This document shows, one piece after another, positions 16,998-35,406 of a stretch of DNA of 51,844 nucleotides. Positions within the stretch are counted from its first letter, which is position 1. Each line of letters opens with the position of its first letter. The DNA is from Chloroflexota bacterium (GTDB lineage: Bacteria; Chloroflexota; Anaerolineae; Aggregatilineales; Ch27), in assembly GCA_019873685.1 (NCBI GenBank), contig JAIOAT010000019.1, positions 1-51,844 of the forward strand. Direction: 5' to 3'. Under the pieces are notes generated by a model that saw only the letters and a list, made by a program, of their open reading frames with translations, was not told the DNA's origin and ran no database searches. Both the position numbers and the translations under genes were made by a program.

Positions 16998-18278
16998 CTA
17001 CGCCGCACTCCCCAGCATAGGGACAACCGCGTTGGCGGCGGGCATGATCGCGATCCTTGCGGATGGCGGTAGACCCGCCAGCGCCGCGTCGATAGCGGCC
17101 TGCAGGCTTTCCGCTGGCGTCAGCAGCAGGGCGCGGACGGCCTCCGGCGGCATATCCGAGACCAGCCGAACGTTGACGCGCACCGCATCGCGCGCGACAA
17201 GATAGGCCTTGTGCTTGCCAATCTGGAACTCCTCGCGGGCGAAGCGATCCAGCACTTCCTGCATAGAGGAGACCTGCCCGTCGCTCATGAACCGTTCAAA
17301 GACGGTGCTACCCGCCCCTTCCGGGCAGGCTGCCACCAGGATCACCGTACCGCCATCGCGGGCGACCATTGCCGCCGGGACGAGCGCCTTCTGCGCCTGG
17401 TAGAAGTTGATGTCCTTGGGTGCGCCGCCGGAGCTGGCGATCACCAGATCGTACGGGGCAGCAACCGGCGTGACCGCGATCTCGCGCACCAGGGGGATTC
17501 CAGCCTGCATCACCGCCAGCGGGTCTCCGGCGATCGCTTTGACGATGGCCTTGCGCCCGTTGAGGATGGCGTTAAGAGCGAAGTGCACGCCGATCATCCG
17601 CCCGATCTCTTCCACGTCCATACGCAACGGGTTTTCTTCGTAGCAGTTCATCCGTGCGCCGGGCAGGGTCAGCATCTTGTGGTTATGGGCGATCGTCTCT
17701 CGTGCGCTGACGCCCACCGCCGCGCTTTTGACGCCGCCGGAGAAGCCCATGAACATGTGCGGCTCGATGTTGCCCACTACCAGCCGCAGATCGGCCTCCA
17801 TGTACCGCCGGTTGACCCAGACCGGAGTCCCGCGCGAGGTCTGCCCCAGGTAGACCATCGCGCTCCGGTCGTCGCAATCGTGGGAAATCACCGGGTAGCG
17901 GGCCAGAATCGCTGGCGGGATGACCCGCTCGAATTCCTCCGGGGGCATAGGCGTATGCGTGCCATTGGCGATGACCAGCGTGATCGCTTCCGGCGGCAGT
18001 CCCAGCGCCTCCAGACGTTCCAGCAGCGGCGGCAGCAGGTACTCGTGCGGCACCGGGCGCGTCTTGTCGTTGACGGCGATGGCCGCGGAACGCACGCCGG
18101 TGAAGCTCGCCAGGCTGACGCCGCCCACCGGCTCGTCAAGCGCCCGGATCACTGTCGCCAGCGGATCGGCTGCCTCCGGCACGTCAGCCGCTGTAATCAC
18201 GTCCACATGCACATAGGCTTCCGGTATGGTGAAGTGGAGCGTCGTCCTGCCATACGGGATAGTGAACTCGCGCGTCAT
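16998..18278 (-). CDS. LarA-family nickel-pincer 2-hydroxyacid racemase/epimerase
   Basis: A 426-residue member of the lactate racemase family, which inverts the C2 hydroxyl of hydroxy acids using a nickel-pincer nucleotide bound to lysine. The key residues are all present and, as I recall the numbering, fall at the same positions as in Lactobacillus plantarum LarA: His108 (NGTHTP), His174 and Lys184 (PHMFMGFSGGVK) and His200 (IAHNH). DKTRP (71-75) and NFYQAQKA (291-298) are also kept. ATG 18278 follows GGGAGGGACG. Family members act on lactate, malate, phenyllactate or gluconate. Placement after a UxaA/SuyB-type lyase points to a substrate other than plain lactate. No LarB, LarC or LarE cofactor genes lie in the window. 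Confidence 0.88.
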   Translation of the reverse strand: MTREFTIPYGRTTLHFTIPEAYVHVDVITAADVPEAADPLATVIRALDEPVGGVSLASFTGVRSAAIAVNDKTRPVPHEYLLPPLLERLEALGLPPEAITLVIANGTHTPMPPEEFERVIPPAILARYPVISHDCDDRSAMVYLGQTSRGTPVWVNRRYMEADLRLVVGNIEPHMFMGFSGGVKSAAVGVSARETIAHNHKMLTLPGARMNCYEENPLRMDVEEIGRMIGVHFALNAILNGRKAIVKAIAGDPLAVMQAGIPLVREIAVTPVAAPYDLVIASSGGAPKDINFYQAQKALVPAAMVARDGGTVILVAACPEGAGSTVFERFMSDGQVSSMQEVLDRFAREEFQIGKHKAYLVARDAVRVNVRLVSDMPPEAVRALLLTPAESLQAAIDAALAGLPPSARIAIMPAANAVVPMLGSAA

Positions 18279-18450
18279 CGTCCCTCCCTGATTCACGTCG
18301 CCAACCCGAAGCGAAACTAACAATGCAGGTCCGGCGGCAAGCCCTCACTCACGGCCCGCGCCTGCCTGCATCATATCCTGCCAACGGAGGGGAACATACT
18401 GGCGAAGGTCACCTGTGACCCGCGCCACAACTCACACCTTCCCGAGCGGC

Positions 18451-19626
18451 CTAGATGCTCACTCCCACGCGGTGGATGGCGAAGCTGTTGTGCGCCTTGA
18501 GCGCCTCCGACTTGGTCAGGCGGCCGCTGGCGACCGCAACGACCTCGTCGAAGACCATGCGCCCGGCCTGCTCCAGTGTGATCTCATCGCGCAGCACGCC
18601 GCTGACATCCAGTTCAACCGTGTCCTTCATCAGCGCGTACGAGGTCGCGTTGCCCGTGATCTTGATCGTCGGCATGATCGGGTGGCTGGAGGTATGCCCG
18701 CCGCCCGCATTGAAAACCAGCACCTGGCAGCCAGCCGCCGCCATGCTGCTGATCGACTCCGCACCATGGCCAGGACCGTACATCACGTACAGGCCGGGCG
18801 TAGCGGTCGCTGGACGCTCAGCGATCTCCAGGTAACCGACGATTGGCGCACTGCCGGACTTCTTGCAGGCGCCCATGGACTTCTCCTCAATCGTGGTCAG
18901 CCCGCCGACGATGTTGTCGCCGGTCGGCTGCGAGCCGCGGATGTCTTCGCCGCTGGCCAGGGCGCGGTTCTCCATGTCCTTCACGCCAGCCACGATCCGG
19001 GCGGCGATCTCCGGGCTGACTGCCCGACCGGTCAGCCACTCCTCGCAACCCATCCACTCCGTGCATTCGGCCATGATCGTGCGCCCGCCCTCAGCGATGA
19101 TCAGGTCGGAACAAATGCCGGTTGCCGGGTTGCTGGCCAGACCGGACGTGGTATCGGATGTGCCGCACTCCACACCGAATAACAGCTTGGAAAGCGGGAC
19201 CGGTTCCCGCCGCTGATCGCTCAGCATGCGGGCGAAGTCTGCCGCGTAGTACAGCGCCTGCTGGGTGGCGGCGATCAGGCCGCCCGCGGCGCGGATGTTG
19301 ACCGTTGCCACTGGCTTGCCGGTGGCCGTCTGGATGTCGTGGGCCAGGTCTTCCGCCGTCATACCTTCCTCGCGGAAGTGGTCGATGACGACCACCGCAC
19401 CCACGTTCGGATTCATGCCGGTATTGGCCAGGAAGCGGCGCGTCATGCGCAGATCGGGGCGTACCTGGCAGCGACCCAGCGGATGGGTGATCGCCACCGC
19501 CCCGGCGATGTGGTCGGCCACCCGCTCGCAGATGTCATTGGCGTACACCGTGCCGGAGAGAATCAGCAGATGATTGCGCGCCCCGACTGATCCGTCAGCA
19601 CGTACATAGCCCCAGAACTCGGTCAT
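18451..19626 (-). CDS. UxaA-family lyase, large subunit (altronate dehydratase or sulfolactate sulfo-lyase SuyB type)
   Basis: A 391-residue protein covering the large domain of the altronate/galactarate dehydratase family. Blocks are GYVRADGSVGARNHLLIL, FGVECGTSDTTSGLASNP, GNIVGGLTTIEEKSMG, GGGHTSSHPIMPTIKI and VDVSG-LRDEIT. E. coli UxaA is one chain of about 500 residues. The separate small subunit encoded just upstream is the layout of (2R)-sulfolactate sulfo-lyase SuyAB, although split dehydratases also exist. Start ATG 19626 overlaps the small-subunit stop by 4 bases. The reaction is therefore either sugar-acid dehydration or release of sulfite from sulfolactate; the gene set favours the second. 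Confidence 0.8.
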   Translation of the reverse strand: MTEFWGYVRADGSVGARNHLLILSGTVYANDICERVADHIAGAVAITHPLGRCQVRPDLRMTRRFLANTGMNPNVGAVVVIDHFREEGMTAEDLAHDIQTATGKPVATVNIRAAGGLIAATQQALYYAADFARMLSDQRREPVPLSKLLFGVECGTSDTTSGLASNPATGICSDLIIAEGGRTIMAECTEWMGCEEWLTGRAVSPEIAARIVAGVKDMENRALASGEDIRGSQPTGDNIVGGLTTIEEKSMGACKKSGSAPIVGYLEIAERPATATPGLYVMYGPGHGAESISSMAAAGCQVLVFNAGGGHTSSHPIMPTIKITGNATSYALMKDTVELDVSGVLRDEITLEQAGRMVFDEVVAVASGRLTKSEALKAHNSFAIHRVGVSI

Positions 19627-19943
19627 GATTCCGCCCCCTGTGATGTCTGCTGCGCGGCCAGATCGCCGCGCCCGCGATTGCTCTCGACGTTGTGGATGTG
19701 GACATGATCGCCAGCCCTGATGTCAACTGTCGCCGTCCCGATGCTGAGACCGTACTTGATCACGGCTGCGCCTCTGGGAATATCCCGCAGGGCGATCTTG
19801 TGCCCGTAGGGAATTGGCTGGTTGGCTACCACACTGATCCCGGTCAGCCGGCCATACGCCTCAACGGTTTCGCCTGCTTCGATCGGCTCCAGCACCGCCG
19901 TGCCGACGTTATCCTCCCGCTCGATCACAAACACACGCTTCAC
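19623..19943 (-). CDS. SAF-domain small subunit of UxaA/SuyA-type lyase
   Basis: A 106-residue SAF (antifreeze-like) domain protein, the N-terminal part of one-chain altronate dehydratases or the separate SuyA subunit of sulfolactate sulfo-lyase. It shows NVGTAVLEPIEAGETV, IPYGHKIALRDIPRG and GDHVHIHNVESNRG, the last being the conserved end of this domain; the final 15 residues look disordered. ATG 19943 follows GGAGAGAC. The 4-base overlap with the large-subunit gene implies translational coupling in equal amounts. Confidence 0.82.
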   Translation of the reverse strand: MKRVFVIEREDNVGTAVLEPIEAGETVEAYGRLTGISVVANQPIPYGHKIALRDIPRGAAVIKYGLSIGTATVDIRAGDHVHIHNVESNRGRGDLAAQQTSQGAES

Positions 19944-19983: not shown

Positions 19984-21393
19984 CTAACTGAACTGCGGCA
20001 GGTAGTCCGCGAACTCGGTCAAAAAGTCGCGCATAATGGCGCGGGCGGTGTCAATGTCGGTAATCATGTGGTCGAGCAGCAATGCCTGCAGCAGGAGCTG
20101 GCGGTCGCCGTGCACCGCCGCCTCCACAACCAGTGAGCTAAGCTCCAGCTCGCGGCGGCACAGCTCGGCGATGCCCTCTGGCAGCGGCGGCATACCCAGC
20201 CCCTGCACCCCCAGCGCGGAGATCACGCCGGGCACCTCGACAATGGCGTCCGGCGGCAGATTGGGGATCAGCCCGCCATTGTTGGGGATGTTCAGTTGCT
20301 GCAGGTAGAGGTTGTCGTTGTAGTGGATGGCGGTCATGATGTCGACGACCGGCTCCTCAAGAATGTCGTGCTTCCACAGGTCGCGCAGTTCCTCCACCGC
20401 CACCTCGCCGCGCACGATCGATTCCGCCAGCGCCCGCCGCCGTGCTCGCCGCCGCCGGTTGCCTTCCCAGTCCTGGGGAGTCAGGTGGTATTTCTCCCAG
20501 GGTTTGGTGGTCGGATCCGTCACCCAGGGCAGGAACTCGCACAGGTGGGCGTCGCCCGGCGTAGGCAGCAGGCCGAAAATCTCGAAGGTCTCGCGGGTCA
20601 GCGGCTCAAAGTCGCGCCGGTAGTGGTTGAACCACTGATCGCGCAGGAGGGGGTAGAGGTCTTCGCCAGTGTGCCGGTCGCGGACCTCGTAGGCCCACGA
20701 GAAGTGGTTAATCCCTGCCGCTTTGATATCCAGATGCTCCAGCGCCGCCCGCGCCACGGGGATGAAATTGGGCATGTTATCGGCGTTGGTGTGAACATGA
20801 AAGCCCGGCGGTACAGGGATGTCCCAGCGGTCGGCCAGCACCGCTCCGGCCATGGCGTACCCCCATAGCAGCTGGTGGCACAGCCCCAGCACCTTGATCG
20901 ACGTATACCGGGCCACACCCCACGTCAGGCGGATCAGCGGGTTGGTCAGGTTAAGGTACCAGGCGTTCGGGCAAAGCTCCTCCATATCGTAGGCGATGTC
21001 CAGCATCAGCGGCATGTTGCGGGCGGTGTGAGCAATCGAGCCGGGGCCGCCGTTCTCCGCGTAGGGCTGGCGCACGCCATAACGCAGCGGAATCTGCCAG
21101 TCCATCTCCCAGACCGTCTCCCGGTCGCCGACCTGCACGGAGACAATCACAAAGTCAGCGTCGCGCAACACCTCGCGGCGATTGGTGGTGCCGCGAATGG
21201 TCATACCCGCGCCCCACGCCGCATTGAGAATCTCCGCCAGGCGGGTCATGGTTTCCAGCGCCGGCTCGTTGATGTCCACCAGGGCCAGTTCAGCGCCACG
21301 CATGCGCTCCGAGCGGATGATAGTCGCCATGGCTCCCAGGCCAAAGATGGCGCTGCCCGCGCCGATGACAACGATTTTGGGCGGCTTGACCAT
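19984..21393 (-). CDS. Glycoside hydrolase family 4 (NAD-dependent glycosidase)
   Basis: A 469-residue cytosolic glycosidase that uses NAD and a divalent metal to cleave by oxidation, elimination and reduction. The Rossmann motif VVIGAGSAIFGLG (8-20) and ALVDI are N-terminal. LNLTNP (147-152), the metal Cys-His in GLCHQ (172-173) and GINHFSW (His230) match GH4 alpha-glucosidase, alpha-galactosidase and alpha-glucuronidase. The substrate is not settled by these motifs. ATG 21393 follows GAGGGGAG; the longer frame upstream overlaps the transaldolase gene. It lies 19 bases after the transaldolase and 40 before the SAF gene, so is clearly in the same operon. Confidence 0.9.
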   Translation of the reverse strand: MVKPPKIVVIGAGSAIFGLGAMATIIRSERMRGAELALVDINEPALETMTRLAEILNAAWGAGMTIRGTTNRREVLRDADFVIVSVQVGDRETVWEMDWQIPLRYGVRQPYAENGGPGSIAHTARNMPLMLDIAYDMEELCPNAWYLNLTNPLIRLTWGVARYTSIKVLGLCHQLLWGYAMAGAVLADRWDIPVPPGFHVHTNADNMPNFIPVARAALEHLDIKAAGINHFSWAYEVRDRHTGEDLYPLLRDQWFNHYRRDFEPLTRETFEIFGLLPTPGDAHLCEFLPWVTDPTTKPWEKYHLTPQDWEGNRRRRARRRALAESIVRGEVAVEELRDLWKHDILEEPVVDIMTAIHYNDNLYLQQLNIPNNGGLIPNLPPDAIVEVPGVISALGVQGLGMPPLPEGIAELCRRELELSSLVVEAAVHGDRQLLLQALLLDHMITDIDTARAIMRDFLTEFADYLPQFS

Positions 21394-21412
21394 AGTTGCT
21401 CTCCCCTCAGGG

Positions 21413-22081
21413 CTACCACTCACCGTACGGAGTTTGATCCCAGAAGCTCTGGAATCTGGCCAGGCCGGAATGCGTGTAGGGGTGGTCAAACCCCTCCTGA
21501 TACACGGCAAACCCGGCGGTGACGATATCCGCCCCGGCGACCGCCGCCTCCACGATCTGCCGCGCGTTGCGCACCGCCGCCACCAGCACCTCGGTGGCAA
21601 ACGCATAGTTGTCGCGGATCGTCACAATCTCCTGAATGAGCGGCACGGTTTCTTCGCCGTTGGCTTCCTTCCAGCCAATGAAGGGTGAGACATACGTCGC
21701 CCCCATGCGCATGGCCTGCAGCGCCTGCACCGCTGAAAAGCACACCGTCACATTGACGCGGATGCCTTCCCCGCGCAGAACCTGGCAGGCTTTGAACCCG
21801 GCTTCGGTAGATGGAACCTTGATCACGAAGTTGGGGCACAGCGCGGCAAGTTGCTCCGCCTCCGCTACCATATCCTCCCAGCGAGTATGGTGCGGATTGA
21901 TCTCGGTGGAGACGGTCTTGTCCGTGCCCGCCACCAGCCGACCAATCTCGCGGATGACCTCCAGAAACGGGCGACCGGTGGCCTGTATATGGCGCGGGTT
22001 GGTGGTCACCCCGTCGATCGCCCACATCTCCAGCGCGTGAGCGATCTCATGAACATGGGCGCTATCCAGAAAGAACTTCAT
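21413..22081 (-). CDS. TalC/fructose-6-phosphate-aldolase-type transaldolase
   Basis: A 222-residue class I aldolase/transaldolase of the short TalC type. It begins MKFFLDSAHV and has DGVTTNPRHI (24-32), the Schiff-base lysine in FVIKVPST (Lys88), NVTVCFSAVQAL and GATYVSPFIGW. The family covers transaldolase, fructose-6-phosphate aldolase and the sulfofructose transaldolase of sulfoglycolysis. Three in-frame starts (22087 GTG, 22084, 22081 ATG) are stacked behind GAGGAGG; 22081 has the best spacing. It heads the second half of the cluster, after an AT-rich gap that may hold a promoter. Confidence 0.88.
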   Translation of the reverse strand: MKFFLDSAHVHEIAHALEMWAIDGVTTNPRHIQATGRPFLEVIREIGRLVAGTDKTVSTEINPHHTRWEDMVAEAEQLAALCPNFVIKVPSTEAGFKACQVLRGEGIRVNVTVCFSAVQALQAMRMGATYVSPFIGWKEANGEETVPLIQEIVTIRDNYAFATEVLVAAVRNARQIVEAAVAGADIVTAGFAVYQEGFDHPYTHSGLARFQSFWDQTPYGEW

Positions 22082-22133
22082 CATCACCCTCCTCTGCCGC
22101 GTCCTCCGCGAGTCTGTGTACAGTCAGATCAAG

Positions 22134-22256: not shown

Positions 22257-23699
22257 CTAATCTTCGCGCCCACCCGGCAGATTCAACACCATCAACTTCA
22301 TCTCCGTCATCTCTTCGATGGCGTAGCGCGGCCCTTCCTTGCCAACGCCTGACCCCTTGACACCACCATAGGGCATCTGGTCAATGCGGAAGGTCGAGAC
22401 ATCGTTCACCTGCAGCCCGCCGACCTGGATCTCCTCAAAGGCGCGCATGATGCGGTTCATGTTGTTGGTGAACAGGCCCGATTGCAGGCCATAGTCCGTG
22501 TCATTGGCCAGGCGGATGGCTTCATCGAAATCTTCATAAGGCGTCACCGTGATCACCGGCGCGAACAATTCCTCGCGGTTGACCCGCATATCCGGCGTGG
22601 TATCCACCAGCACAGTCGGCTCAAACATCGCGCCTTCACAGCGCCCACCCAGAACAATCCTGGCGCCAGCGGCGACCGCTTCCTGCACCTTGGCGTAGGC
22701 TTCCTGTGCAGCCCGTGCGTCGATCATCGGGCCGACTTCCACGGTCGGATCGCGCGGGTCGCCGAACTTGAGCTGGCTGATCCGCTCCAGCAGCAGTTCC
22801 AGCGTCTGGTTGTAGATCGGGCGGTGGATCAGCACCCGCTGCACGGAGATGCAGTTCTGCCCGGCGTTAGTGAAACCGCCAACGGCGATCCGCCGCACAG
22901 CATAATCGATGTTGGCGTCCTCATGGACGATGGCCGCCGCGTTCCCGCCCAGTTCCAGCCCGACGCGCTTGCGCCCGGCCACACTCTTGAGATGCCAGCC
23001 GACCTCTGAACTGCCGGTGAACGTGAAGAACTTGATGCGCTCGTCGCGGACAAGTCGCTCCGCCCGCGAGCCGGGGCAGATCACCACGCTCAACGCCTCC
23101 GGCGGGAAACCGGCTTCCAGCACCATCTCCGCCAGCAGCAGGCCCGAAAGCGGCGTATTGCTGGCCGGCTTGAGGATGAACGAGTTCCCCGCAGCGATAG
23201 CCGGGCCGAGCTTGTGGCAGCTCAGGTTGAGGGGATAGTTGAAGGGCGCAATGCCCAGCACCGGCCCCAGCGGCAGGTGCCGGACGAGGCCGATCCGCCC
23301 TTCGCCGGCTTCCGTCCAGTCAATCGGGACAATTTCCCCGGCGATACGCTTGGCTTCTTCCGCCGAGACGCGGATGGTTTCCAGCGCCCGGCTAACCTCC
23401 CCTCGCGCCACATTGAGCGTCTTGCCGCCCTCCAGCTGGAGCGCCGTCACCAGCTCATCGAACCGCTTTTCCATCTGGGCGAGCAGCTTGAGCAGGATGC
23501 CTGACCGGCGGTACGCTGGCAGCTTGCGCGTCACTTCAAAGCCGCGCACTGCCGCCTGAATCGCATCTTCCAGGTCGGCGTCGCTTGCCTGGTAGACCTG
23601 AGCAACAACCTCGTTGTTGTAGGGGAAGCGAACATCCACCACCACGTCGCTGGCGCGCCATTCGCCCCCGATCAGGAACTTGTGCGGTCCCTTGTCCAT
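22257..23699 (-). CDS. NAD(P)-dependent aldehyde dehydrogenase (lactaldehyde/sulfolactaldehyde type)
   Basis: A 480-residue ALDH-superfamily enzyme oxidising an aldehyde to an acid. Catalytic residues are Cys283 (NAGQNCISVQ), Glu249 (ELGGN), Asn154 (PFNYPLNLS) and Lys177 (ILKPAS). The PFNYPLNLSCHKLGPAIAAG block is typical of lactaldehyde and non-phosphorylating glyceraldehyde-phosphate dehydrogenases, and sulfolactaldehyde dehydrogenases belong to the same broad group. ATG 23699 follows GAGGAGTC. It lies 63 bases after an ABC permease gene. Substrate is inferred from context only. Confidence 0.87.
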   Translation of the reverse strand: MDKGPHKFLIGGEWRASDVVVDVRFPYNNEVVAQVYQASDADLEDAIQAAVRGFEVTRKLPAYRRSGILLKLLAQMEKRFDELVTALQLEGGKTLNVARGEVSRALETIRVSAEEAKRIAGEIVPIDWTEAGEGRIGLVRHLPLGPVLGIAPFNYPLNLSCHKLGPAIAAGNSFILKPASNTPLSGLLLAEMVLEAGFPPEALSVVICPGSRAERLVRDERIKFFTFTGSSEVGWHLKSVAGRKRVGLELGGNAAAIVHEDANIDYAVRRIAVGGFTNAGQNCISVQRVLIHRPIYNQTLELLLERISQLKFGDPRDPTVEVGPMIDARAAQEAYAKVQEAVAAGARIVLGGRCEGAMFEPTVLVDTTPDMRVNREELFAPVITVTPYEDFDEAIRLANDTDYGLQSGLFTNNMNRIMRAFEEIQVGGLQVNDVSTFRIDQMPYGGVKGSGVGKEGPRYAIEEMTEMKLMVLNLPGGRED

Positions 23700-23762
23700 G
23701 ATGACTCCTCGCGTGTTTACCTGTCCATTCAGGCCAGCCCCGCGCGGGGTTGGCAACCTCAC

Positions 23763-24839
23763 CTACTTCATGCCCGTCGTAGCGATACCGGTGGTGATGT
23801 AGCGCTGCAACAGCGCAAAAACCACCGTAATCGGCAGCAACGTCAGCACGGTCATCGCCAGGATGTAATGCCACTGTACATTCAACGCGCCCTGAAAGGC
23901 GTTCAGGCCAACCTGCAGCGTGAACAACTCCGAACGGTTGAGTACGATCAGCGGCCACAGGAAGTCGTTCCAGCGCCACATCACCGAGAAGATTGTCAGC
24001 ACCGCCAGCGCCGGTGACGTCAGCGGCAGGATGATCTGCCAGTAGATGCGCCATTCGGTCGCCCCGTCAATCCGCGCTGACTCCAGCAACTCATCGGGGA
24101 TGGTCAGCATATACTGGCGCAACAGGAAGACTCCGGTCGGCGTGGCCGCGCCGGGGATGATCACCCCCCACAGGCTGTTGTTCCACCCCACCTTGGTGAT
24201 CACCAGAAAGGCCGGGATCAGGATGACGGAGATCGGCACCATCAGCGTGCTGATCATGATCAGGAAGATCGTGTCGCGGCCTCTGTAGTGGAACTTGCTC
24301 AGGCCGTAAGCCGCCATGCTGTTGATTAACAGCGTGACCAGCGTCGCCACCACCGTGATCACCACGCTGTTGCGCAGGTATGTGAAGAACGGGAAGCTTT
24401 GCACCCCGCCGCTGTAATTGGACAGGTCAAAGAACACCCGCTTGACTTCCCGCCGCCCCGCCAGTTCGCGGATGTTCAACTCCAGCGGCTCAGCCTCAGG
24501 CTGCGCGGGGTCGACCATCGTCACCTGCAAACCGACGCGCCGCACCTGGGCCAGCCGCCGGGTGGTGCCATCGGCAAACGTGATGTCATACAGTGGCAGC
24601 GGCTGCTCATAACCCTCCATCACCACCGTGTCCTGCTTCTGCGGCAGAAAGCTGGGCGGAAAGTCAAACAGGTTGGACTGCGCCTTGAAAGACGACATCA
24701 CCAGCCAGACCACCGGGCCGAACATCACCACCACGCCCGCCAGCAAATAGAGATAGGTCAGCACATCGGCCAGATCAATCCGGCGACCGCCGTGTTTGCG
24801 GGTCAGAAAGGCGACTACGCCGCGCTTTTCGTCAGCCAT
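23763..24839 (-). CDS. Carbohydrate ABC transporter permease, MalG type
   Basis: A 358-residue inner-membrane permease of the sugar-importer group. A first helix (about 27-50) is followed by an extracytoplasmic loop of about 100 residues, much longer than in E. coli MalG. About five more helices follow, with the ATPase-coupling EAA loop ESARIDGATEWRIYWQIILPL. ATG 24839 is close behind the stop of the partner permease gene. No ATP-binding subunit is encoded in the cluster, so a shared MsmX-like ATPase must drive it. Confidence 0.9.
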   Translation of the reverse strand: MADEKRGVVAFLTRKHGGRRIDLADVLTYLYLLAGVVVMFGPVVWLVMSSFKAQSNLFDFPPSFLPQKQDTVVMEGYEQPLPLYDITFADGTTRRLAQVRRVGLQVTMVDPAQPEAEPLELNIRELAGRREVKRVFFDLSNYSGGVQSFPFFTYLRNSVVITVVATLVTLLINSMAAYGLSKFHYRGRDTIFLIMISTLMVPISVILIPAFLVITKVGWNNSLWGVIIPGAATPTGVFLLRQYMLTIPDELLESARIDGATEWRIYWQIILPLTSPALAVLTIFSVMWRWNDFLWPLIVLNRSELFTLQVGLNAFQGALNVQWHYILAMTVLTLLPITVVFALLQRYITTGIATTGMK

Positions 24840-24858: not shown

Positions 24859-25920
24859 TCAGGCGATCTCGCTTGTCCGGCCCAGGCGGAGCTGGCCGAG
24901 CGTCAGGACGAAGAGCACTGCTGCCAGCACCAGCGAGGTCGCCGCGGCCAGCCCGAATTGCTGCCGGTCAAACGCTGTCTGGAAGATGTACTGAACCATG
25001 TACAGTGTCGCTGTCCCCGGCCCGCCCGTGGTCAGGACAAACACCTGGTCAAAGACCTGCACCGCCCGGATCAGGGAAAGCACCAGCACTACCACCATCG
25101 TCGGCATGAGCAGCGGCAGCGTGATCTGGCGGAACGACCGCCAGGCGCCCGCGCCATCCATCGACGCCGCCTCATACAACTCATGGGGGATGGATTGCAG
25201 CCCGGCCAGCAGGATCAGGGTGTGGAAGCCCATCTGCGCCCACACGCTGACCACGATTACCCACAACCGCGCCCAGTTCGCTTCCACCAGGAAGGGCAGG
25301 CGCTCCAGGCCCATCCCGACCAGGATGCCGTTGAAGACCCCTTCCGGTTGCAGAATCCACTTCCAGATCAGGGCCACCACCACCGGAGAGAGCAACACCG
25401 GGTAGAAAAAGATACTGCGGAAGAACCCCCGCCCGCGCACTTCGCGGTTGAGCGCCAGCGCGGTCACCAGCGCCAAGAGCACCATGACGCCCACCTGAAA
25501 GATCACGAAGGTGAGGGTATTGCCCGCTGCCCGCCAGAAGCGATCCTGCTGGCAGACGCTGGGGTTCATGAAGCTCTCACTGCGCGGGTCAAGGAAGGTC
25601 GGCTGGCAGCTAAACAGGGATTCCAGGTTAGCCAGCCCCACAAACTGGCGATTCTCCGGCAGGATGGAATCGCCCGCCGTGAAGCCATAGTAAAAGTTCA
25701 AAAGCATCGGCAACAGGATGAAAATGCCAAAGACCAGTAGATTAGGCAAGACAAAGAAATAACCCATCCGCTGCATACCCAGCAGCTTCTGCAGCGGCCC
25801 CAGGACGACATCCGCCAGGGTCGCCAGCACTACAAACGGCTTGAGCAGCAGCCGACCGATCCAGGCCATCACAAGCTTTCGTTTCCCGCCTCTGCGCTTG
25901 CTGACTCGTGTCGTGCGCAT
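24859..25920 (-). CDS. Carbohydrate ABC transporter permease, MalF/UgpA type
   Basis: A 353-residue inner-membrane permease, partner of the MalG-type protein encoded 19 bases downstream. A basic N-terminus and amphipathic segment precede six main helices starting near MGYFFVLPNLLVFGIFILLP. The first large outer loop contains two cysteines (FSCQP and SVCQQ). The coupling loop is YEAASMDGAGAWRSFRQITLP, followed by TTGGPGTAT, a common motif of UgpA-like proteins. The start codon at 25920 sits 116 bases after the binding-protein stop. Confidence 0.9.
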   Translation of the reverse strand: MRTTRVSKRRGGKRKLVMAWIGRLLLKPFVVLATLADVVLGPLQKLLGMQRMGYFFVLPNLLVFGIFILLPMLLNFYYGFTAGDSILPENRQFVGLANLESLFSCQPTFLDPRSESFMNPSVCQQDRFWRAAGNTLTFVIFQVGVMVLLALVTALALNREVRGRGFFRSIFFYPVLLSPVVVALIWKWILQPEGVFNGILVGMGLERLPFLVEANWARLWVIVVSVWAQMGFHTLILLAGLQSIPHELYEAASMDGAGAWRSFRQITLPLLMPTMVVVLVLSLIRAVQVFDQVFVLTTGGPGTATLYMVQYIFQTAFDRQQFGLAAATSLVLAAVLFVLTLGQLRLGRTSEIA

Positions 25921-26036: not shown

Positions 26037-27314
26037 CTACTGGGCAAACAGTGCGTCCATATCCGCCTGAATGCGCTCGATCGCCTCATCCAGCGTGAAC
26101 TCACCGGCGATCACCTGGCTCAGGCGGTCGCGGATGGCGGCGTTCAGGTCCGGCCCCTTGGGGTGATACTGCAGCGCATACGCTTCTTCCATCAGGTTGG
26201 GGATCATCGCGGCGAAGGCATTGAGGGCTTCGTTGTTGCTGGGATACTCAATGCCCTTCTCGATCAGGCCCAGATGCCCCGGCAGGAAGAGCGTGCGGGC
26301 ATAGAACTCCGCGATCACCTCTTCGCTGAACAGGTAGTCCATGACCTTCCCCACTTCTTCCGGATGTTCGGTGCCCGCAAAGGCCACCATCAGCGCGCCG
26401 CCGGGCACGCCGGTCGCCCCGCAGTCACCGCGCGGATTGGGGATCACCTTCCAGTCAAAGGCGTCACCGATGTTGGTGGCGAAGTTGCCCACCTGCCAGC
26501 TGCCGGACATGTACAGCACCAGTTGTCCGTTGATGAAGTACGGTGCCGCCGGGACGTAGTTGCCCGCGCTGCCGCCCCAGACATCCGGCGGCATCAGCCC
26601 ATCGTTGTGCCAGCCGATGATCATCTCCGCCGTAGAGCGGAAGCCCGGCGAATCGACGGTGAAGGTGCCATCCTCGTTGATGTACGTCGCGCAGCGGCTC
26701 AGCGATGGCCCCCAGAAGCGGTGCCCGGTACGGTCAATCGCCACCGGGTAGATGGTGAATTCGGCGTCGCTCAGCTCTTCAGCGACCGCCGTCGCCGCCG
26801 CCACCCATTCCTCCCAGGTCGAGTCATCCGCCGGGATTTCCACGCCGGCCTGCTCGAACAGGGTGACATTGATGAACGGCCCGGTCACGGTGAACTGGGT
26901 TGGGTAACCGTAGATGCCGGTATCCTCTGCCCCCTGACGCATGGAGCCGAGCACAGCCTCCGGGATGTTGTCCAGCCAGTACTGCGGATCGGCGACGTAA
27001 GCAGATAGATCAAGGTACTGGCCCAGGAAGCGGTTGGGGAAGGTAATACGGGCCATATCCGGGGCTTCGCCGGTCTCAACCTGCGCCTGCAGCAGGGTAT
27101 GCAGGTCAGCGTAAGCCACCTCGTCGATGACCACCCTGATCCCCGGGTTCTCCGCCTCAAACCGGTCGAGCAGGTCGCGCAGGACCTCGCCCTCGTTACC
27201 ATCGTTGTACCAGGTGATGCGCAGCTCAACCTGGTCACCCTGAGCCAGTGCGGGCAGCGCCGCTGCGATCAACGCAGCCACCACCAACAATGCAAGAAGG
27301 GTTCGTTTCGTCAT
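26037..27314 (-). CDS. Extracellular sugar-binding protein of an ABC importer (family 1)
   Basis: A 425-residue solute-binding protein for the permease pair that follows it. Residues 1-24 are a signal peptide ending ALPALAQ, which favours signal peptidase I; there is no lipobox cysteine. The mature part has the MalE-like pattern ITWYNDGNEGEVLRDLLDRFEAENPGI and SGSWQVGNFAT. ATG 27314 follows AGAGGAGAT. In a monoderm the absence of a lipid anchor would be unusual; in a diderm it would be normal. Ligand unknown; the cluster suggests a glycoside or sulfosugar. Confidence 0.9.
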   Translation of the reverse strand: MTKRTLLALLVVAALIAAALPALAQGDQVELRITWYNDGNEGEVLRDLLDRFEAENPGIRVVIDEVAYADLHTLLQAQVETGEAPDMARITFPNRFLGQYLDLSAYVADPQYWLDNIPEAVLGSMRQGAEDTGIYGYPTQFTVTGPFINVTLFEQAGVEIPADDSTWEEWVAAATAVAEELSDAEFTIYPVAIDRTGHRFWGPSLSRCATYINEDGTFTVDSPGFRSTAEMIIGWHNDGLMPPDVWGGSAGNYVPAAPYFINGQLVLYMSGSWQVGNFATNIGDAFDWKVIPNPRGDCGATGVPGGALMVAFAGTEHPEEVGKVMDYLFSEEVIAEFYARTLFLPGHLGLIEKGIEYPSNNEALNAFAAMIPNLMEEAYALQYHPKGPDLNAAIRDRLSQVIAGEFTLDEAIERIQADMDALFAQ

Positions 27315-27337
27315 CAGCTTATCTCCTCTTTGGTCAG

Positions 27338-27350
27338 ACAAACGGTTTGT
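27338..27350. promoter_or_regulatory. Palindromic operator candidate upstream of the sugar-binding protein
   Basis: ACAAAC-G-GTTTGT is a perfect 6+1+6 inverted repeat, 24 bases before the binding-protein start in a 121-base gap inside the cluster. The shape resembles LacI/GalR-family operators with a central CG. It would let the transporter be regulated separately from the isomerase and ROK genes. Confidence 0.45.
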
Positions 27351-27435
27351 ACCAGGGCCACAAAGGCCCAACGAGACTCGCCGGCGTACGCCATACGGTC
27401 GGGTAACGGTCATTCCTCCTTTCCAGCCAGAACGC

Positions 27436-28779
27436 TCAGAGGTTCAAAACCGGGAGGCCGAGCAACCCGGCCAGCGCAGTCAGCGCCGCCCGGTGCTCGC
27501 CATACGTCAGCGCCAGATGATGCTCCAGCCCTTCACGCAAAACCGTATCCAGGACATCCATCGTCGGGCGGTCAAAACGCAGCAGGCCCGACGTGCCGGA
27601 AAAACTCGGCGGTGCAGGCAGCATCTCGCCGCCGCCGATCACCAGCTGCAGATCGCCGTTCGCCTGGCTCAAGCGGGCCACGGTCACACGCCCCGGCTTG
27701 AGCGGGAATTGCAGCAGCAGCGGCAACCGCCGGTTGGAATGAACAACGCCGCGCGGCTGATAAGCCGGATCACTCATCGAAAGGGGGGCTTTGCCACAGT
27801 GCCATAGCACCGCAGCGTCAGTTTCCCGGTCAATCGCCACCAGGTCGGCGTCGAAAGCCGGGGAATCGCTCACCCATTGCAGGATGAGCTGCGTGATCGC
27901 CCCGTTGACATCCGCCTCACAGGCTGCCGGGAGACGATCGTCGTTAAGCATACCCAGCGCCCCGCAGGCCGCGCATCCAAGATCGGTGAAGAACTGCGGC
28001 CAGCAGCGCACCGCCAGACCGCTGAATCCTTCCTGCCTGGCCAGTTCGCGCAGCACCACATACGTCGCCAGCGTCCCGCGCACCGCGCCACGATCCAGCT
28101 CCTGCAGTCCGGCCAGCCGTTCGCCCGCCCATGCCTCGAGCGCGTCAAGCTGCTCGCTGTCGGCGGCGCGCACCCGTTCAAACACCTGCTCCAGCGCCAC
28201 CGGGCTGACTCTGACCCCCAGGCGGCGCTCCAGGCTGGAAAGATCAACCTGGCACGTCTCGAAGCCGTCCGGCGGAGAGCCAACGCGCCCGATCCGCGCC
28301 TGCGCCAGCAGGCGGCGGGCGCGCCCCGCCGCCGCCAGAGTTTGCACCAGCTCCAGGCCAGCAGCATCCTCCGGTGCAGCATAGACATGCCAGTAAGGAC
28401 GCCCTGCCCGCTTGAGGGCGTGCGCACCCAGGTTGATCCCGCACAGTGAATTAAGCCGCAACCGTCCGCCTGTACGCGCTTCCGGCACCGCCCACAGCAG
28501 CAGCGGCGCATCGATCCGCTCGGCAAGAGTCATGAGCATCGAACTATCGGCGAAGGTGGCCTGGAAGATCACCAGCGCGTCCAGCGGTTGCCCGGCAAAC
28601 ATCCTGGCCGCCGCCAGCGCTTCCTCCAGCGTGGTCACCAGCGTCTCAGGGCCGATCAGCGCCAGGTTGGCCCCGGCCAGATGGGCGCGCGCCGTGGCGG
28701 CCACTTCCACCGCCAGCGGGATGTCAAAGGTGGTGCGGGCAACCGGCACAAAGCCGACCTGCCATCTCCCCGCCGCCAT
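27436..28779 (-). CDS. L-fucose/L-arabinose isomerase-like protein
   Basis: A 447-residue protein of the fucose/arabinose isomerase superfamily, which converts aldoses to ketoses with Mn. The N-terminal Rossmann-like half contains VGFVPVARTTFD and LVIFQATFADSSM. The C-terminal half has likely metal ligands Glu288 (CEADVNGA), an Asp near 310-317 (FDADLVAIDRET) and His327 (WHCGKAP). The family includes FucI, AraA and, as I recall, the sulfoquinovose isomerase of the sulfo-transaldolase pathway. Its ATG overlaps the ROK stop (TGATG), so translation is coupled. Confidence 0.82.
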   Translation of the reverse strand: MAAGRWQVGFVPVARTTFDIPLAVEVAATARAHLAGANLALIGPETLVTTLEEALAAARMFAGQPLDALVIFQATFADSSMLMTLAERIDAPLLLWAVPEARTGGRLRLNSLCGINLGAHALKRAGRPYWHVYAAPEDAAGLELVQTLAAAGRARRLLAQARIGRVGSPPDGFETCQVDLSSLERRLGVRVSPVALEQVFERVRAADSEQLDALEAWAGERLAGLQELDRGAVRGTLATYVVLRELARQEGFSGLAVRCWPQFFTDLGCAACGALGMLNDDRLPAACEADVNGAITQLILQWVSDSPAFDADLVAIDRETDAAVLWHCGKAPLSMSDPAYQPRGVVHSNRRLPLLLQFPLKPGRVTVARLSQANGDLQLVIGGGEMLPAPPSFSGTSGLLRFDRPTMDVLDTVLREGLEHHLALTYGEHRAALTALAGLLGLPVLNL

Positions 28780-30035
28780 CAGGCCACTCCCTCGTAGTGC
28801 TGGTAAAAGAACCGGTTGAGGGCCAGCGCCGCCGCCCCGATCACGCCAGCGTTCTGATGGTTGAAGCTGGGCGGCACAAGCGCCACCTTTTCGCCCAGCC
28901 GGGCGAAGGCGCGCTGAATCATCGTCTCCCGGATGACCGGCAGGAGTAGGTCCTGGCCCTGGGCCAGGATACCACCCAGTACGATCAGCTCCGGGTTGAG
29001 GATATTCACCAGATTGGCGAGCGCGATCCCCATGTAATGGGCACGCTGGTTGAGCAGGTTGCGACTCGCGCTATCCCCCGCCCGCGCCGCGGCAAAGACG
29101 CGCTCGATCAACGGGCCACTGCCCGCCCGCCAGTGCTGGGCAAGCAAACCACCCGGATTGCGCTCGGCAATGAGTTGCGCTTCCCGCAAGATCACCGGCT
29201 CCGAAATCAATGTCTCCAGGCAGCCGCTGTTCCCGCAACGGCAGCGCGGACCGCCATCCGGCAGGATGGTCATGTGGCCGATCTCTCCGGCGCCCGCCCC
29301 GCCGCCGTAGTAAAGCCGCCCGCCGACCACAATCCCGGCGCCCACACCCACACGGGCATAAACAAAAGCCAGTGAATAGACATCCTTGCCGACGCCAAAC
29401 AGCGCTTCCCCCAGGGCCATCGCCCGCACGTTATTGTCAACCGTGACCGGCAGATGCAACTTGCTGGCGAAGTAATCCTGCAACGGTACATCATGCCAGT
29501 TCAGGTTGGGCGCGAGGATGTTGACGCCGGTCAGCGGATCGACCAGCCCTGAGGCCCCCACCCCCAGCCCCAGGATGTGGCTGCGATCAAGCTGCGGGTT
29601 ACGCCGGATCAGCCCCTGCGCCAGCGCCGCAGTCTGGGCCAGCACCTCGGCAACCGGCAGGTCAAGCGGATGTTCCAGAGCATCCACCGCGATCGGCCTG
29701 GCCAGCAAGTCAGTCAGCGCCACCCGGACACTCCCCACACCAAAATGGATGCCCAGCGCGTAACGCGCATCCGGCACCAGGTGCAGCTGGCGGCGTGGTC
29801 GCCCAACGCTGCGCTGTCGCTCCTGCGGCTGATCCTGCTCTTCCTGCGCAACAATGCCAGCTTCGATCAGTTCAGTGACCAGGTTGGTGATGGTGGTGGT
29901 GGAAAGGCCGGTCAGATCGGCCAGGTCAACCCGCGATATCCGACCGTAGCGCAGGAGCATCAGCAACACGGCGCTCATGTTGCGCGGCTTGATCGTGCTA
30001 CTGCTGCTGCCCACCGGGTTACGCCGCAGAATCAT
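28779..30035 (-). CDS. ROK-family transcriptional regulator
   Basis: A 418-residue sugar-responsive repressor. Residues 20-65 form a winged helix (RISRVDLADLTGLSTTTITNLV). A sugar-kinase-like domain follows, with VGASGLVDPLTG, VDNNVRAMALGE, AGEIGHM (His254) and the zinc signature CRCGNSGCLE (265-274). It heads the minus-strand cluster and is coupled to the isomerase gene, so it most likely controls the cluster and itself. ATG 30035 follows GGGGAG; the longer upstream frame has no site. Two AT-rich palindromes lie about 80-105 bases upstream. Confidence 0.92.
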   Translation of the reverse strand: MILRRNPVGSSSSTIKPRNMSAVLLMLLRYGRISRVDLADLTGLSTTTITNLVTELIEAGIVAQEEQDQPQERQRSVGRPRRQLHLVPDARYALGIHFGVGSVRVALTDLLARPIAVDALEHPLDLPVAEVLAQTAALAQGLIRRNPQLDRSHILGLGVGASGLVDPLTGVNILAPNLNWHDVPLQDYFASKLHLPVTVDNNVRAMALGEALFGVGKDVYSLAFVYARVGVGAGIVVGGRLYYGGGAGAGEIGHMTILPDGGPRCRCGNSGCLETLISEPVILREAQLIAERNPGGLLAQHWRAGSGPLIERVFAAARAGDSASRNLLNQRAHYMGIALANLVNILNPELIVLGGILAQGQDLLLPVIRETMIQRAFARLGEKVALVPPSFNHQNAGVIGAAALALNRFFYQHYEGVA

Positions 30036-30113
30036 GGGAAACTCCCCTGCCCGGACGCCTCCACCGCCGGCGCAGGCGGCGACGCAGGGCAGGATGCACC
30101 AGCAGATGGGATG

Positions 30114-30140
30114 AATTAATTTTTCAAGGGGATTAATTAA
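30114..30140. promoter_or_regulatory. Paired AT-rich palindromes, candidate ROK operator
   Basis: AATTAATT (30114-30121) and TTAATTAA (30133-30140) are each self-complementary, with centres 19 bases apart, about two helical turns. The second is flanked by GGG and CCC. They lie just upstream of the ROK gene in an otherwise GC-rich region and are good candidates for binding by a ROK dimer or tetramer and for promoter melting. Confidence 0.5.
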
Positions 30141-30235
30141 CCCTGATTCAGTGTACCCGGAAAACGCCGCACCTGTCAAGAATCCTGCCGGGCGGCCCAC
30201 CGAACCGCCCGGCAGGCTGAAAACACAGGTAGACG

Positions 30236-33496: not shown

Positions 33497-34525
33497 ATGA
33501 AGAAACTTCTGTCCCTTCTGCTGGTCAGCATCTTTGTGCTGGCCCTGGTGCCAGCCGTCTCCGCGCAGGGCGGCATCGGCACCGCGGATAACCCGATCGA
33601 AGTGTATTTCGTGCCGTCCGGCGAAGCGCAGACCATCGTCGAAGGCGGTGAGGTGCTGGCAGCGGCTCTGAAGGAAGCAACCGGCCTCGAATTCAGGGTT
33701 TCGGTGCCAACCTCCTATGCCGCAACTGTTGAAGCCATGTGCGCCGCCCCTGACCGCTCGCTGGGCTTCATCCCGGCGGCGGGCTATGTGATCGCCAATA
33801 ATCGCTGCGGCGTCGAGGTGGCGGCGGCAGCCGTCCGCTTTGGCTGGCCCTACTACTGGGCGCAGTATGTCGTCCGCCGCGATAGTGACATCTACACGCT
33901 CGGCGACCTGGCTGGCAAGAGCTGGGGCTACGGCGATCCCGGCTCGACCTCTGGCTACATCGTGCCCTCGGTGGAATTGAAGGCCATGGGCATCACCCCC
34001 GGCTCCGAGGTTCAGACCGGCGGCCACAACCAGACCATCCTGGCCGTGTATAACGGCGAAGTGGACTTCGGCACCACCTACTACAGCCCGCCCATCATGC
34101 CGGAAGGCCATGCCCAGTGGTCTGTACGCGACCTGCCTGAGCCATACGATCTGTCCATCGACGAATCGTACATTGGTGATGACGGCGAGCTGTATGTGGG
34201 CGACATCCGCATCATGGATGCCCGCCGCGCCGTCCGCGAGACCGCGCCGGATGTGGTCAACCAGGTGCGCATCCTGGCCATCAGCGCCCCAATCCCCAAT
34301 GACACGCTGAGCTTCAGCCCGGACTTCCCGGAGGACCTGCGCCAGCAGATTCTGGATGCGCTCTTCGCTCTGGCGGAGAACAAGGAAGCCTGGGACGCCA
34401 CCGCGCTGGCCACCGCCTATAGCTGGACCGGCATCGCCCCGGTGACCGATGATGCGTTCGACTCTGTCCGGCTACAATTCGAGATCCTCGGCCTGACGGA
34501 ACAGGATGTATTCGGCGAAGGCTAA
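33497..34525 (+). CDS. phnD: Phosphonate/phosphite/phosphate ABC transporter substrate-binding protein
   Basis: A 342-residue exported binding protein of the PhnD type. A signal peptide ends near VPAVSAQ. The mature part has VYFVPSGEAQTIVEGGE, VPTSYAATVEAMCA, LGDLAGKSWGYGDPGSTSGY (the oxyanion-binding loop) and DFGTTYYSP. ATG 33497 follows GACGAGGAGA. It is followed by a strong hairpin and then phnC and phnE, a normal order in which the binding protein is made in excess. The exact ligand cannot be told from sequence, and no C-P lyase genes are present. Confidence 0.9.
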   Translation: MKKLLSLLLVSIFVLALVPAVSAQGGIGTADNPIEVYFVPSGEAQTIVEGGEVLAAALKEATGLEFRVSVPTSYAATVEAMCAAPDRSLGFIPAAGYVIANNRCGVEVAAAAVRFGWPYYWAQYVVRRDSDIYTLGDLAGKSWGYGDPGSTSGYIVPSVELKAMGITPGSEVQTGGHNQTILAVYNGEVDFGTTYYSPPIMPEGHAQWSVRDLPEPYDLSIDESYIGDDGELYVGDIRIMDARRAVRETAPDVVNQVRILAISAPIPNDTLSFSPDFPEDLRQQILDALFALAENKEAWDATALATAYSWTGIAPVTDDAFDSVRLQFEILGLTEQDVFGEG

Positions 34526-34564
34526 CCGTTCCCTTTCGGTCAACTGACCATCAACGGTATACTA

Positions 34565-34605
34565 ACGGGCAGCGAGAGTCGGCACTCTCCCTGCCCGTTG
34601 TTTTT
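34565..34605 (+). terminator. Intrinsic terminator/attenuator between phnD and phnC
   Basis: AACGGGCAG (34565 onward) pairs with CTGCCCGTT and, after one C-C mismatch, GAGAGT pairs with ACTCTC around loop CGGC; GTTTTT follows. This 15-bp interrupted stem with a T-tract probably gives partial termination, so that phnD mRNA exceeds phnCE mRNA. Confidence 0.85.
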
Positions 34606-34647
34606 GCCCGCCCACCCGGATCACCGGGGAACAGGACGGAGACCCTG

Positions 34648-35406
34648 ATGCTCAAGATCGAACATCTCACCAAGATTTATGACAATGGCGTCATGGCCCT
34701 GAATGATGTCAGCTTTGAGGTGCCGGACGGCCAGTTTGTCGTGATCATCGGCCTGAGCGGTTCCGGCAAGTCTACCCTGCTGCGTTGCATCAACCGCCTG
34801 ATCGACCCCACCGCCGGACGCATCCTCTGGAACGACATCGACATCACCGCCGCTACCGACGAAGAACTGCGCCTGATCCGCCGGCGTATTGGCATGATCT
34901 TCCAGCAGTTCAACCTGGTCAAGCGTTCTTCTGTCCTGACCAATGTCCTGTCCGGGCGGCTGGGATACACCAACCCGCTGTGGAGCCTGATCAACTACTT
35001 CCCGCGCAGCGAACGGGAGAAAGCGCTGGAAAAACTGGAGCGGGTGGGCATCCGGGAGAAAGCCCACAACCGCGCCGATGAACTGAGCGGCGGCCAGCAA
35101 CAGCGCGTCGGGATCGCTCGCGCCCTGATGCAGGAGCCGGAGCTGATGCTGGCTGACGAGCCAGTGGCCAGCCTGGACCCCGCCACATCCCACTCAGTCA
35201 TGAAGTATCTGGAGCTGCTGAACAAGGAAGATGGCCTGACCGTGCTGTGCAGCCTGCACTTCCTCAGCCTGGCGCGCACCTACGCCGACCGGATCATTGC
35301 CCTCAAAGAGGGCAGACTGATGTTCGACGGTCTGCCGGAAGACATCGACGATGAACGCTTCAAAGCCATTTATGGCGAAGACGCTGTGCGGGTTGAGATC
35401 GCTTAG
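34648..35406 (+). CDS. phnC: Phosphonate ABC transporter ATP-binding protein
   Basis: A 252-residue ABC ATPase on the cytoplasmic face of the PhnE permease. Walker A is GLSGSGKST (35-43), the Q-loop is in MIFQQFNLVKR, the signature is LSGGQQQR (147-154) and Walker B is LMLADEP, with a His switch in CSLHFL. The QFNLVKRSSVLTNVLSGRLGY block is typical of PhnC. ATG 34648 follows ACAGGACGGAGA. Its stop is 8 bases from the phnE start. Confidence 0.95.
   Translation: MLKIEHLTKIYDNGVMALNDVSFEVPDGQFVVIIGLSGSGKSTLLRCINRLIDPTAGRILWNDIDITAATDEELRLIRRRIGMIFQQFNLVKRSSVLTNVLSGRLGYTNPLWSLINYFPRSEREKALEKLERVGIREKAHNRADELSGGQQQRVGIARALMQEPELMLADEPVASLDPATSHSVMKYLELLNKEDGLTVLCSLHFLSLARTYADRIIALKEGRLMFDGLPEDIDDERFKAIYGEDAVRVEIA

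Follow-up and report, generated by a model that had tools for sequence, protein, structure and literature searches.

How does a bacterium that breaks down sulfoquinovose through the sulfolyase SuyAB pass from the sulfolactate enantiomer that its pathway produces to the one that the lyase accepts? This question is raised by the window, a 51,844-nucleotide stretch of a Chloroflexota genome (assembly GCA_019873685.1, contig JAIOAT010000019.1), where a gene for a nickel enzyme of the LarA superfamily stands next to genes for a SuyAB-like lyase. Some 10 billion tons of sulfoquinovose are produced every year, and for its complete breakdown via SuyAB, (S)-sulfolactate must be converted to (R)-sulfolactate. 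Because the stereocentre derives from C5, cleavage of the sulfosugar gives (S)-sulfolactaldehyde; the substrate of SuyAB is (R)-sulfolactate (PMC12421959, PMC9594981). The described solution is the enzyme pair SlcC and ComC (PMC12421959, PMC9594981), as an earlier, sequence-only reading of this DNA had stated. SuyAB itself is already known from sulfofructose transaldolase (sulfo-TAL) clusters, since it was reported in those of Thermotogae and Chloroflexi (PMC9594981). We propose that the LarA protein of the window is very probably a nickel-pincer-nucleotide-dependent sulfolactate racemase, with its substrate, stereochemistry and direction predicted from sequence. The sequence-only reading, which had put this enzyme forward as a candidate, knew of no described sulfolactate racemase; likewise, we found the term in no paper of the open-access library searched, subscription literature, including the original Chloroflexi sulfo-TAL report, being beyond the scope of this search.

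A sulfoquinovose operon that ends with LarA

A LarA homologue beside a SuyA/SuyB-like pair was all that the sequence-only reading had picked out, and intact frames and Pfam domains bear this out. These three genes close a larger, 11-gene run on the minus strand (30200-16998), a sulfoquinovose operon in which a ROK regulator is followed by an SftI-like isomerase, an ATP-binding cassette (ABC) transporter, a SlaB-like aldehyde dehydrogenase, a sulfofructose transaldolase, a glycoside hydrolase family 4 (GH4) protein, SuyAB and, last, LarA (Table 1). The pathway identity of the operon comes from its upstream genes, namely the BmSF-TAL-like transaldolase and the SftI-like isomerase, which form the sulfo-TAL marker pair. 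The transaldolase matches BmSF-TAL (PDB 8bc3) with 240 bits, against 168 bits for the next different transaldolase in PDB, and the sole NCBIfam match of the isomerase is SftI (NF048012), at 290 bits and thus under the cut-off of 700. All NCBIfam matches of the aldehyde dehydrogenase are below cut-off, and the top three include the sulfoacetaldehyde dehydrogenase SafD; a relative adjoins SuyAB-LarA in locus L124 and the transaldolase in L209 and L210. The lyase has the SuyAB architecture, a separate SAF small subunit and a GD_AH large subunit, and the suyA-like and suyB-like genes share a 4-bp overlap.

In our model, the GH4 glycosidase would release sulfoquinovose, which the SftI-like isomerase would convert to sulfofructose. 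The transaldolase would move a C3 unit onto glyceraldehyde-3-phosphate, leaving (S)-sulfolactaldehyde, and the aldehyde dehydrogenase would convert this to (S)-sulfolactate. LarA would transfer the C2 hydride to the nickel pincer, giving bound sulfopyruvate, and return it on the other face to yield (R)-sulfolactate, which SuyAB would split into pyruvate and sulfite. LarA would stand in place of the SlcC/ComC dehydrogenase pair, in the same pathway slot, where (S)-sulfolactate becomes (R)-sulfolactate before SuyAB acts (PMC9594981, PMC12421959). Unlike those two NAD(P)-dependent dehydrogenases, which work via free sulfopyruvate, the predicted route uses one nickel enzyme with internal hydride transfer. 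The enzyme set, from sulfoquinovose to pyruvate and sulfite, is identical to that of the extended sulfo-TAL and SuyAB pathway of Thermotogae and Chloroflexi; how (S) is turned into (R) is not assigned to any enzyme in the text of PMC9594981, and the window has the candidate LarA to fill this step.

If this prediction is true, the LarA superfamily would gain a new activity, that of a single nickel sulfolactate racemase, and complete mineralisation of the sulfosugar within one cell would have an explanation for many Chloroflexota. It would also correct the database name, malate racemase, and provide a residue-level test of specificity.

The LarA clade follows SuyB across the class

SuyB, LarA, transaldolase and a second SuyB served as queries against 298 genomes of the class. 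The type-B SuyB query (see below for the two types) carried about 70 wrong-frame residues at its start and lacked the C-terminus, but the matches fall on its correct portion. Of the 298 genomes, 39 contain the close LarA clade (E about 1e-98 or better, the next match being 2e-84) and 32 contain SuyB. The sequence-only reading had proposed to test whether the two go together, and they do: 28 of the 32 genomes with SuyB have the clade, compared with 11 of the remaining 266 (p about 3e-26 in Fisher's test, relatedness ignored). In 21 of 27 pairs, no more than 2.5 kb separates LarA from SuyB; the pairs span 10 family-level groups (genome G193 excluded), and conservation in so many genomes puts the LarA-SuyAB arrangement far from chance. 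Sulfofructose transaldolase was found in 31 genomes, where LarA and SuyB occur together in 18, SuyB only in none, LarA only in three and neither in ten. Every genome with both transaldolase and SuyB (18/18) thus carries the LarA clade, and from this split we conclude that LarA tracks the desulfonating enzyme and not merely the sugar pathway.

SuyB in the class comprises two divergent lineages, type A and type B, and both pair with the LarA clade. Type A, to which the window protein belongs, is found in 9 class genomes (70-100% identity) and is sister to haloarchaeal plasmid SuyB-like proteins. Type B is found in 22 genomes plus G193, whose SuyB is truncated at a contig start, and is about 60% identical to the Cupriavidus pinatubonensis SuyB beside hpsN-hpsO. 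The window SuyB shares just 36-39% identity with this Cupriavidus-like type B and is not a close orthologue of the C. pinatubonensis protein. The type-B proteins of Paracoccus and Rhodococcus are encoded instead beside a hydroxyacid dehydrogenase and an Ldh-family oxidoreductase.

In the LarA phylogeny, a single clade unites the Chloroflexota proteins (58 rows, support 100), and both the lactate racemases and Mar2 fall outside it. A sub-clade of 38 rows, with support 92 but shown as weakly resolved, holds all 23 sulfo-linked rows; the sulfo-linked label requires 9 changes on the tree compared with 21 in shuffles. A search of contigs with LarA alone found SuyB or transaldolase in the flanks of 0 of 80 loci, and the Chloroflexota loci inspected adjoin housekeeping genes. 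We rejected this set as an argument against the SuyB linkage, as the wider search revealed that it had mostly missed the sulfo-linked sub-clade.

Apparent replacement of SlcC and ComC by LarA

Four SuyB genomes have no intact LarA. In two of them (G262 and G239) the contig stops about 590 bp beyond SuyB, and in a third (G297) the LarA beside an intact SuyB is a pseudogene (L121 2511-3530), disrupted by frameshifts and two stops and missing an internal segment; this genome has several Ldh_2 genes elsewhere. The fourth, G135, is the sole SuyB genome with neither a LarA trace nor an assembly gap. Here a ComC-like Ldh_2 gene, whose product has its best NCBIfam score with the sulfolactate dehydrogenase model, below cut-off, adjoins an SlcC-like dehydrogenase and a sulfofructose-kinase-like gene. 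Orthologues of SlcC (at least 53% identity) were found in G135 and in seven transaldolase genomes with neither LarA nor SuyB; of the genomes with both LarA and SuyB, G184 alone has one. This distribution reads as replacement of SlcC/ComC by LarA.

The window genome itself contains no ComC-family protein (PF02615). At locus L192 it carries larE, larB and larC (LarE 328, LarB 276 and LarC1 188 bits, all above NCBIfam cut-offs), larC being cut by the contig end. Because the genome has other LarA matches, one of them lactate-type (L190, G000:C25, about 33519-34772; residues F, F, W and Q), larEBC alone is not specific evidence. Absence of larBCE and clustering with lactate racemases were the two genomic outcomes that, for the sequence-only reading, would have spoken against a sulfolactate racemase; we obtained neither, the second being addressed by the tree and by the pocket residues described next.

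Residues of the LarA pocket

The LarA frame is intact, with the ATG at 18278 as its likely start, and both of its Pfam domains score over cut-off (Lar_N 197 bits, LarA_C 69 bits). The sequence-only reading had listed His108, His174, Lys184 and His200 as kept; our alignment agrees and adds D72, R75 and K298. In window LarA these seven residues, D72, R75, H108, H174, K184, H200 and K298, are D66, R69, H103, H169, K179, H195 and K292, in a numbering that starts from the Thr codon at 18263. The AlphaFold model has a mean predicted local distance difference test score of 95.1 and matches the crystal structures of Mar2 and LarA.

The pocket is of the malate type, with His358, Lys359 and Gln297 as in Mar2; His358 and Lys359 (His351 and Lys352 in query numbering) are the H/Q plus K combination of the malate racemases (LarAH5/MAR). 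Sulfolactate differs from malate in carrying a sulfonate where malate has its distal carboxylate. Lys359 has been proposed to bind malate through this second carboxylate (PMC11770544), and the side chain at position 175, after the catalytic His174, touches the substrate (PMC11851776). This position is Gln in 21 of 21 other sulfo-linked rows and Met in the window genus, and His in 18 of 18 rows of an Anaerolineaceae group without sulfo linkage. A Gln-or-His variation in LarA group 5, noted in PMC7583248, may concern the same position.

The window enzyme shares with LarAH5/Mar1 and LarAH6/Mar2 (PMC7583248, PMC11770544) the fold, the catalytic and cofactor residues, the His-Lys motif and the Gln before the catalytic Lys. 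It differs from both in sitting with a sulfofructose transaldolase and SuyAB, and from Mar2 in that His174 is followed there by Tyr-Lys and in the window clade by Met or Gln plus Phe. The texts of these two LarA surveys contain no word beginning with 'sulfo'. With the lactate racemase LarA (PDB 5HUQ), the window protein has in common the fold and catalytic machinery (about 30% identity), but not the substrate pocket or the phylogenetic position.

Alternative substrates

An improbable but not negligible alternative is that this LarA is a genuine malate racemase, which lies in the operon by chance and serves C4 metabolism. The LarAH5 match and the His-Lys motif shared with Mar2 point that way, as do related Anaerolineaceae LarA genes near phosphoenolpyruvate carboxykinase. 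Chance placement, however, fits poorly with SuyAB adjacency repeated across many family-level groups and with the near-perfect link to SuyB among transaldolase genomes, and the substrate-contacting residue after His174 separates the Gln of linked enzymes from the His of unlinked Anaerolineaceae ones. Moreover, Mar1 of Desulfitobacterium hafniense, the tested group-5 enzyme, has a Michaelis constant of 55 mM for malate, and its authors doubted that malate is the native substrate (PMC7583248).

We regard it as very unlikely that the operon serves sugar-acid catabolism, with an altronate/galactarate-type dehydratase and an aldonate epimerase, the fallback offered by the sequence-only reading. The lyase does belong to the UxaA/GarD family, and the nearest solved GH4 is annotated as an alpha-galacturonidase; nevertheless, the transaldolase, the SftI-like isomerase, the aldehyde dehydrogenase, the transporter and the malate-type pocket disfavour it. 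The gluconate 2-epimerase signature E, V, A, H (positions 175, 176, 358 and 359; PMC11770544) is M, F, H, K in the window enzyme, and type-A SuyB groups with haloarchaeal proteins encoded beside GH31-type, SlcC-like and ComC-like genes. Slighter still is the chance of a lactate racemase acting on fermentation lactate derived from pyruvate. Although family membership and pyruvate as the end product would suit it, the same M, F, H, K residues depart from the lactate-racemase signature F175, F176, W358, E/Q/T359, the protein scores 305 bits with the NCBIfam lactate racemase model LarA, under its cut-off of 460, and a separate lactate-type LarA exists at C25 of the same genome. Equally remote is action on another small anionic 2-hydroxy acid of the pathway, for which one could cite L179 and L223, where LarA is paired with a threonine-synthase-like protein; sulfolactate, however, is the sole 2-hydroxy acid from the known sulfo-TAL route, and LarA and SlcC interchange in SuyAB contexts and apparently also in threonine-synthase-like ones.

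Several observations do weigh against a sulfolactate racemase. Window LarA scores 536 bits with the NCBIfam malate racemase model LarAH5 (NF052595), over its cut-off of 462, and it has Met175 and Leu362 where linked relatives carry Gln. The LarA clade occurs without detected SuyB in 11 genomes, some with His175, and L179 and L223 combine LarA and transaldolase with the threonine-synthase-like protein and no SuyAB. Some Ldh_2 protein is present in 16 of 31 SuyB genomes, so absence of the ComC family is not general and only the linked SlcC/ComC pair is exclusive. The (R) preference of the type-A SuyAB of the window is assumed. Finally, nearly all of the evidence comes from one phylum, and p-values ignore relatedness.

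The sulfolactate racemase reading might extend to Mar1. Reports on D. hafniense describe sulfolactate as an electron acceptor of this organism and list a SuyB candidate in it. We tentatively suggest, as something possible though rather less likely than the alternative, that LarAH group 5 contains a sulfolactate-racemase clade marked by Gln (or Met) after His174 and that Mar1 also is such an enzyme; the Mar1 link to sulfolactate is a lead only.

Operon genes and variation among related clusters

Table 1 Genes of the sulfoquinovose operon, from its LarA end to its head.
Feature	Coordinates	Strand	Basis
LarA-superfamily nickel-pincer racemase, candidate (S)/(R)-sulfolactate racemase	16998..18323	-	Pfam Lar_N/LarA_C; NCBIfam LarAH5; catalytic and cofactor residues; AlphaFold
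SuyB-like sulfolyase large subunit, type A lineage	18451..19626	-	Pfam GD_AH_second/GD_AH_C
SuyA-like small subunit	19623..19943	-	Pfam SAF domain; adjoins SuyB in nearly all relatives examined
GH4-family glycosidase, candidate sulfoquinovosidase	19984..21396	-	Pfam Glyco_hydro_4/4C; recurs in sulfo-sugar clusters
6-deoxy-6-sulfofructose transaldolase, SftT/SqvA-like	21413..22087	-	best PDB match BmSF-TAL 8bc3
Aldehyde dehydrogenase, candidate sulfolactaldehyde dehydrogenase, SlaB-like	22257..23762	-	Pfam Aldedh
ABC sugar permease 2	23763..24839	-	kept in relatives' clusters
ABC sugar permease 1	24859..25920	-	kept in relatives' clusters
ABC carbohydrate-binding protein	26037..27413	-	weak NCBIfam carbohydrate substrate-binding matches
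Sulfoquinovose isomerase, SftI/SqvD-like	27436..28779	-	NCBIfam SftI NF048012 below cut-off; Pfam Fucose_iso_C
ROK-family regulator, head of operon	28779..30200	-	Pfam ROK and winged helix

Relatives of the GH4 glycosidase recur, at 64-73% identity, in the sulfo-sugar clusters L161, L162, L166, L170, L191 and L208, making it a candidate GH4 sulfoquinovosidase. Known sulfoquinovosidases belong to GH31 and GH188, and a literature search for one of GH4 returned no case.

Clusters with LarA and SuyAB vary in their other genes. In several lineages the partners are GH4, GH31 or a Gfo/Idh/MocA protein, either an aldehyde dehydrogenase or an aldehyde ferredoxin oxidoreductase accompanied by a MoaD-like protein, a YeiH-type exporter, and ABC or tripartite tricarboxylate transporters. 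The unit of G178 (L124) consists of aldehyde dehydrogenase, SuyAB and LarA, and nothing more. The aldehyde ferredoxin oxidoreductase, seen in place of the dehydrogenase at L160 5324-7051, L161 445-2571, L166 4544-6376 and L179 3936-5675, often with the MoaD-like protein beside it, is a candidate tungsten enzyme for sulfolactaldehyde oxidation.

In other transaldolase clusters a threonine-synthase-like pyridoxal phosphate protein takes the place of SuyAB (L209 11538-12761, L210 1614-2837, L179 2755-3939 and L223 3433-4599). It is accompanied by SlcC in L209 and by LarA in two genomes, in one of them with a YeiH-type exporter alongside. In G307, from another class of the same phylum, LarA lies between the transaldolase and the threonine-synthase-like gene, in a cluster that has a YeiH-type exporter but lacks SuyAB. 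This protein possibly represents another desulfonation route.

Outside the phylum, the haloarchaeal type-A loci L082 and L083 hold the GH31-type, SlcC-like and ComC-like genes mentioned above, and one of the two adds an aldehyde dehydrogenase and a putative sulfate exporter. On plasmid pSPTER of Sporomusa termitida (L084 6329-9155), a gene for a group-22 nickel-pincer-nucleotide isomerase stands beside a split UxaA-family pair and a tripartite tricarboxylate transporter; we rejected it as a second LarA-SuyAB case, the LarA being that group-22 isomerase and the lyase falling outside both SuyB lineages. Lastly, phosphofructokinase-like and aldolase-like genes replace the transaldolase in some SuyB clusters (L120 9472-11903 and L213 12156-14491), which suggests a sulfoglycolytic Embden-Meyerhof-Parnas (sulfo-EMP)-type route with SuyAB.

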